Source of the DNA: Crambe crambe
Lineage: Eukaryota; Porifera; Demospongiae; Poecilosclerida; Crambeidae
Direction of reading: 5' to 3'
DNA length: 64,000 bases
NCBI GenBank assembly: GCA_963924555.1
Contig: OZ004587.1
Location: forward strand, 6,526,075 to 6,590,074
This document shows, piece after piece, positions 3,565-54,714 of this stretch. The notes beneath the pieces are model-generated. The model worked only from the letters and a program-made list of their open reading frames with translations, was not told where the DNA came from and made no database searches. Every line of letters starts with the position of its first letter. Position 1 is the stretch's first letter. A program made the position numbers and the translations under genes.

Positions 3565-3664
3565 ATGGAGTGTCGCAGCACCTTGCAATCACCTAGGTGT
3601 GGAGCTGTTGGATTGCAGTGGATGCTTGCTGTTGTTCTCTTTCTGAGTGCACTAATAAGATTAG
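3565..3664 (+). CDS. exon 1: start codon and signal peptide
   Basis: ATG at 3565 lies in GACGATGG, with an in-frame TAG upstream at 3544-3546. The 33 codons plus one base end at donor G|GTTAGA (3665). Residues 17-31 form a hydrophobic core (LQWMLAVVLFLSALI) after a short basic start, as expected of a signal peptide. The phase-1 end joins exactly to exon 2 at 5065 to give R-L-G-S-S-Q-A-I-Q-G-C, a plausible cleavage neighbourhood. A more upstream non-coding exon cannot be excluded. Confidence 0.75.

Positions 3665-54714: not shown

Follow-up and report, generated by a model that had tools for sequence, protein, structure and literature searches.

A probable single gene of 100 exons for a giant string of Calx-beta modules in the sponge Crambe crambe, with plausible kinship to aggregation factors

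The window analyzed here is the whole 64,000-nucleotide stretch C10:6526075-6590074 (Crambe crambe OZ004587.1, C10 being our handle for that contig), and the genome searched comprises 143 Mb in 119 contigs. Most of the window is occupied by what is likely, judging from its sequence, a single gene, laid out on the forward strand as follows.

3565..54714, plus strand: whole coding span, 100 exons, 99 phase-1 introns, 8,099 residues
3565..3664, plus strand: exon 1, start codon and signal-peptide-like MLAVVLFLSAL, the best hydrophobic window of the protein
5065..5217, plus strand: exon 2, short Cys-rich N-terminal segment (CCL...CTVC), which matched itself only in the genome search
5548..7615, plus strand: exons 3-6, two degenerate Calx-beta-like N-terminal modules; within the cluster family, exon 5 marks N-termini weakly
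8272..29477, plus strand: exons 7-47 with modules 3-24, most modules being spread over two exons (A half of ~135-156 nt, B half of ~186-243 nt)
29947..40709, plus strand: nine tandem units of ~1.19 kb, modules 25-51; exons of 138+534+348 nt make three Calx-beta modules in each
40762..53151, plus strand: exons 75-98 with modules 52-67, comprising triplets that follow the array pattern but have diverged, and the last modules
53376..53927, plus strand: exon 99, first part of the C-terminal domain (CT1), with NDTVVGDP at its start and HGLIG at its end
54386..54714, plus strand: exon 100, second part of the C-terminal domain, from QFW to the stop codon TAA at 54712-54714
54740..54745, plus strand: AATAAA, a possible polyadenylation signal read by eye, 26 nt past the stop codon

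Long CT/GA dinucleotide tracts occur at window positions 7863-8264, 61915-62118 and 62889-63045, the first of them lying in the intron before exon 7 and ending 7 bp ahead of that exon. Downstream, a minus-strand gene model at 56104-62120 would encode a coiled-coil protein rich in charged residues, perhaps of the stathmin type when judged by eye; the first exon of this model consists of simple repeat and should not be relied upon.

The exons were chained by dynamic programming over window positions 3400-55500; the program's own output served to retrain its weights for codons and splice sites, and all intron phases were treated as equal. The uncorrected chain has 100 exons, with 97 of its 99 introns in phase 1, one in phase 0 and one in phase 2. 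Correction by hand removed four exons of 9-15 nt and added exon 1, exon 39 (25117-25272) and the two terminal exons, and the raw 100 exons are not identical with the final 100. Six boundaries were also shifted, four to phase-1 sites that exist in the DNA and two for module completeness with the phase unchanged. In the final model all 99 introns are bounded by GT..AG and all 99 are in phase 1, in agreement with the initial annotation; the sum is 8,100 codons including the stop, 20 fewer than the 8,120 counted there, and the difference presumably reflects other splice choices. Phase 1 was kept in mind at some of the hand-chosen sites, and the fairer figures are those of the uncorrected chain and of a frame-fixed splice-site test with profile-defined edges, which gives phase 1 for 97/105 acceptors and 91/106 donors; some of the failures probably arise at module boundaries internal to the 534-nt exons, where no exon ends. 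When a 268-kb region was chained with weights from the giant gene's own exons, phase 1 was found in 62 of 150 introns on the reverse strand, used as a decoy, versus 321 of 360 on the coding strand. Chance open reading frames are ruled out by purifying selection, by this decoy and by homology.

The encoded protein begins with the signal-peptide-like start and the short Cys-rich segment, continues through 67 Calx-beta modules and ends in a 294-residue C-terminal domain (hereafter CT). Assuming cleavage after residue 37, the mature product has a mass of ~875 kDa and a pI of ~4.05. It carries 153 N-glycosylation sequons versus 73 expected from composition. The single RGD is at chance level (~2 expected) and was set aside as an integrin motif. 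We find no convincing membrane anchor, as the initial annotation had claimed along with a signal peptide: the nine hydrophobic 19-residue windows beyond the start all fall within Calx-beta modules. The signal-peptide-like start, the lack of a convincing anchor and the Calx-beta modules together argue for an extracellular, calcium-related protein.

The modules span residues 85-7805, and an iterated profile trained on the giant gene itself counts 67 of them, the number proposed initially: 66 are matched across the module and one over its N-terminal half. Beyond the second module, the gaps between them are 1-4 residues. Sixteen of the 67 modules were scanned as protein with the stock Pfam profile (PF03160), suggested alongside the initial count; 13 exceed its cut-off, namely all three expected stretches in one array unit and 10 of 11 in other modules. 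Missed are the degenerate N-terminal pair, which jointly reaches E 0.043, and module 65. Among the matches listed in a genome-wide, exon-by-exon Pfam search, many above-cut-off Calx-beta matches lie in the window. A sequence match to NCX1 reaches 8.7e-10, and the AlphaFold model of one module (pLDDT 88.9) superimposes on the NCX1 calcium sensor 2dpk with a TM of 0.88, so that profile match and NCX-like fold both place these modules in the Calx-beta family. The calcium-site columns, which we assign from the NCX ligands and the alignment to NCX1, are strongly acidic in an alignment built with the profile trained on the giant gene: E14 in 67/67 modules, D76, E80 and E83 each in 66/66, D114 in 60/60, and D50 and column 112 each in 64/66, with column 75 acidic in just 42/66. 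Most calcium-site acids are retained in nearly all modules, and calcium binding is predicted. The likeness to NCX1/CALX thus covers fold and calcium-site acids; there, however, CBD1 and CBD2 are two regulatory domains within a transporter, whereas the giant protein is a predicted secreted rod.

The C-terminal domain, like the gene cluster and the three-module tandem unit, was not mentioned in the initial annotation, and all three are observed here. Five aligned CTs share invariant N7, D8, T9, G12, D13 and P14 and the motif HGL.GQFW, and GDP is also present in a sixth. The intron falls at an identical position, between HGL[LI]G and QFW, in 5/5 cluster copies examined. Searched against six CTs, ITI_HC_C (PF06668) gives two weak matches of 19.6 and 15.9 bits (E 7.5e-4 and 0.01), both under its curated cut-off of 27 bits, which leaves the domain outside that family by the cut-off; the four other CTs give two weak DUF7385 matches (E 0.0053 and 0.037) and, for two, no match. 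ITI_HC_C finds no match at 0.1 across the genome, NCBIfam gives nothing at 0.01 for two CTs, and in the PDB the CT sequence finds nothing and the CT profile only matches of E 0.22 or worse. A single-sequence fold of the first CT exon reached pLDDT 30.9 and was not used. A tree of six CT rows has no supported inner branch and places the CT of the giant gene on a long branch.

Matches to the first half of CT at E < 1e-20 lie at 14 places including the giant gene, ten on C10, three on C5 and one on C1, some of them with internal stops. In the 268 kb fetched around the gene, all 279 of 279 Calx-beta matches (E 0.01) are on the plus strand, and four neighbors bear a CT. By the same counting these have ~21, 22, 3 and 11 modules versus 66 in the giant gene, which is the biggest member found in this local tandem family. 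At C10:6446-6458 kb and 6480-6491 kb, two Calx-beta genes with CT lie 34 kb apart; their CTs are nearly identical and followed by a Pro/Ala-rich tail, and by sequence the pair is a recent duplication. Away from the C10 cluster, CT domains occur at C5:8.895-8.912 Mb and C1:7.82 Mb, 10 kb of sequence at the C5 locus contains no Calx-beta match, and CT may be a mobile C-terminal domain. At C9:4224783-4225019, a Calx-beta match falls within a single open frame of 10,128 codons; a 646-residue stretch of that frame (C9:4223501-4226500) contains repeats that are IPT/TIG-like by eye, and this frame is possibly an intronless giant of similar size.

A pattern-based scan of a prokaryote genome collection returned 19 candidate stretches, one of which, LWTN01000179.1, encodes a relative. 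This contig is filed as a Cycloclasticus symbiont of a Poecilosclerida sponge; it contains Calx-beta half exons separated in phase 1 and a CT spread over two exons, and for this reason most likely represents sponge host DNA. Its CT is 69% identical to that of one neighbor (X1) and 45% to that of the giant gene. Past this first CT gene, at 4616-4946 of our stretch L049 of that contig, a second match to the second half of CT is split across two frames, either from tandem CT genes in that contig too or from a decayed copy. In the genome searched here there are 121 matches to papain-like proteases; the active site is visible in 13 of 16 fragments read, and 3 of these 13 have a silicatein-type serine in place of the active-site cysteine. 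Such a serine is a hallmark of demosponge silicateins, and the host accordingly looks like a demosponge.

Between 29947 and 40709, nine units of three exons (138, 534 and 348 nt) recur with a period of 1,190-1,277 bp and account for 27 modules. The mean identity of the array exons is 0.931, and that of the three introns is 64, 81 and 80%. With a mean dS of 0.18 and a mean dN of 0.044, the array is under purifying selection (dN/dS ~0.25). Several flanking triplets carry the 534-nt exon split in two (333-336 + 195-201 nt), and the triplet next to the array (40762-42111) keeps that exon joined (531 nt). Because flanking triplets have this exon as two, the array is probably younger than the loss of the intron in the 534-nt exon. 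Growth of the gene would have proceeded by duplication of exons of class 1-1, a three-module unit arising first, two exons then merging by intron loss, and the shortened 1.19-kb unit finally being amplified.

The exons of units 7 and 8 are 99% identical, as an assembly artefact might produce, but all other pairs differ by ~4-11% in their exons and by more in their introns, a divergence which, together with the constrained dN/dS, a mis-assembly would not create; we regard an artefactual array as very improbable. The uniform phase very probably is a by-product of duplicating one 1-1 module and calls for no present selection for exon skipping or shuffling. The neighbors also have phase 1 in 135/148 acceptors and 141/149 donors in the frame-fixed test, the tandem units are plainly duplicated, and no result here counts against this reading. 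By either count of the introns, final or uncorrected, the modules of the giant gene belong to class 1-1, described in passages of PMC8001218 as the general rule among shuffled extracellular modules of animals. Uniform phase 1, offered initially as a special feature, is therefore a weak one, since both this family and class 1-1 modules ordinarily show it, and the interesting parts are the size, the in-frame unit array and CT. It is worth noting that exact frame closure is uninformative, since any subset of symmetric exons closes too, and two or more adjacent Calx-beta genes could be read as one with their joins concealed. What argues for one gene is that the N-terminal marker of the family, a weak one, lies at one end and CT at the other, and that neither occurs a second time; this upholds the single gene of the initial annotation as probable and sets aside frame closure as its proof. 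The marker, an exon-5-type module matched over its first 50 residues, was picked by hand, and its matches are weak (E 0.003 to 2). Across the 268-kb region it is found eight more times, after exclusion of matches at 6475405 (E 0.74, a different exon part), 6357015 (6.2) and 6572148 (at least 36, the other match inside the giant gene); CT occurs there once in the giant gene and at four other places. The order of N markers and CTs along the region is N N N N N N C N C C N C N C. Four of the nine N markers, the giant gene's included, reach a CT before the next N, five do not, and one CT has no N marker of its own. With five N-marked segments lacking a CT, the domain is not a universal gene end, and a gene ending without one is possible inside the span. 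A signal-peptide-like start at 41011 overlaps no predicted exon. Against several genes, the 11 signal-peptide-like phase-1 starts listed in the span are exon 1, nine that overlap predicted exons and one in a T-rich intron, in a scan that is near noise (29 plus-strand and 20 minus-strand matches) and whose stricter version missed exon 1; the largest internal gap is intron 1, of 1,400 bp. A multi-gene run over the cluster split the gene at 24475/24645 and fused its flanks to other sequence. This break lies inside module 19 and in our view is false; ab initio gene ends across the cluster proved unreliable, and only the phases were used. Taken together, a division into several genes appears improbable, and the gene is real, probably single and unusually large.

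Whether this gene encodes an aggregation factor is a separate matter. Grice 2017 is said to define aggregation factors by Calx-beta, VWD and Wreath domains; an aggregation factor would further belong to a purified, calcium-dependent proteoglycan by which cells aggregate. The giant protein has multiple Calx-beta domains, and its gene stands in tandem with similar ones in a demosponge, as the AqAF genes of Amphimedon are clustered; CT could be the Wreath domain. No VWD match was found in the N-terminus, in CT or in the 16 modules scanned as protein, and none of the 30 matches listed in a six-frame VWD search of the genome lies in C10:6.1-6.6 Mb, 51 of the 67 modules being covered by that search alone. 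The initial proposal of a sponge aggregation factor is thus favored by the Calx-beta repeats and the cluster and disfavored by the lack of a VWD match, and the identity is plausible rather than established. In common with the aggregation factors of Clathria (Microciona) prolifera (O16857) and Amphimedon (AqAF), the protein has demosponge Calx-beta repeats, clustered paralogues and a calcium dependence that is here predicted from sequence; unlike them, it shows no VWD match in the parts scanned and is a candidate member, predicted from its gene, of such a complex. Long Calx-beta strings also occur in Nematostella A7SVI9 and other tandem-repeat proteins, and ADGRV1 is an adhesion GPCR with a long extracellular Calx-beta string. 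ADGRV1 is a membrane receptor with about half the module number of the giant protein. In part of a 2009 table (PMC2805694), O16857 has 15 repeats in 2,205 residues and the largest Calx-beta repeat protein has 41 repeats in 4,953 residues, versus 67 modules in 8,099 residues here. A calcium-binding protein of the matrix or cell surface that takes no part in the aggregation factor complex, such as a matrix organizer or an immune surface protein, is a less likely but serious alternative. Besides the VWD results, it draws on Calx-beta being a general module: a locus with VWD-like and Calx-beta sequence at C10:8.05 Mb, considered as the true aggregation factor and rejected, models as EGF-rich and probably membrane-anchored through a C-terminal hydrophobic segment (domains by eye), and CT queries found nothing there. 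Against this alternative stand the tandem cluster in a demosponge-like genome, the repeats of O16857, the acidic and sequon-rich product, and the occurrence of CT relatives in Poecilosclerida, to which C. prolifera belongs.

Passages of PMC8380372, PMC6820919 and PMC7828597 present aggregation factors as large extracellular proteoglycans with calcium-dependent binding; they do not describe the domain layout of the giant protein. Doubts on the singular importance of aggregation factors are reported in part of PMC6820919, and in a passage of an Amphimedon graft study, genes for adhesion mediated by aggregation factors were not enriched (PMC5450542). In the literature searched, we found no published Calx-beta protein of such size and no CT; the main aggregation factor paper falls outside that literature, so this absence means little.

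On balance, we lean toward one gene for a secreted, very acidic giant of 8,099 residues, with a signal peptide, a Cys-rich head, 67 Calx-beta modules and CT, acting as a calcium-dependent adhesion or matrix fiber of the aggregation factor kind. From what can be read in the DNA (exon structure, module string, calcium-site acids, tandem family and CT conservation) we infer how such a fiber might work. A Calx-beta module is 4-5 nm long; calcium bound at the modules, together with the short linkers, would stiffen the string into a rod of ~0.3 micrometre. The sequons would bear glycans, the CT end would be the assembly end, and the protein as a whole would serve in calcium-dependent adhesion or in the matrix.

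For the CT end, the C-terminus of inter-alpha-trypsin inhibitor (ITI) provides a possible precedent. The likeness comprises the weak ITI_HC_C match in two of six CTs, GDP near the start of the domain and HGL.GQF, motifs that resemble those of ITI. Unlike the ITI heavy chains, CT has no histidine after GDP and no VWD match, and the product shows no VIT or VWA by eye. The heavy chains of inter-alpha-inhibitor are cleaved at Asp-Pro, and aggregation factors have separate core and arm polypeptides. According to part of PMC4661386, the C-terminal aspartates of these heavy chains are ester-bonded to chondroitin sulfate, and a passage of PMC3100329 gives GDPH as a potential autoproteolytic site of a mucus protein. 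By analogy, which we take as a lead only, CT might be a self-cleaving, cross-linking end cap: N-D-T-x-x-G-D-P would be cut at Asp-Pro (residues 7820 and 7821), the freed Asp would ester-couple the Calx-beta arm to the acidic glycan of the complex, and the released CT (~280 residues) would become a core subunit. We consider this proposal quite unlikely as it stands; if true, the end cap would explain how core and arm polypeptides come from one precursor and what ties the protein arms to glycan.

Lastly, if transcripts confirm it, the locus would hold an adhesion-type gene of very large size in an animal lineage that branched off early, and would clearly exemplify the growth of a coding tandem array inside a modular gene. 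CT, conserved into another sponge lineage, would offer a handle on how sponge adhesion complexes assemble and join acidic glycan.
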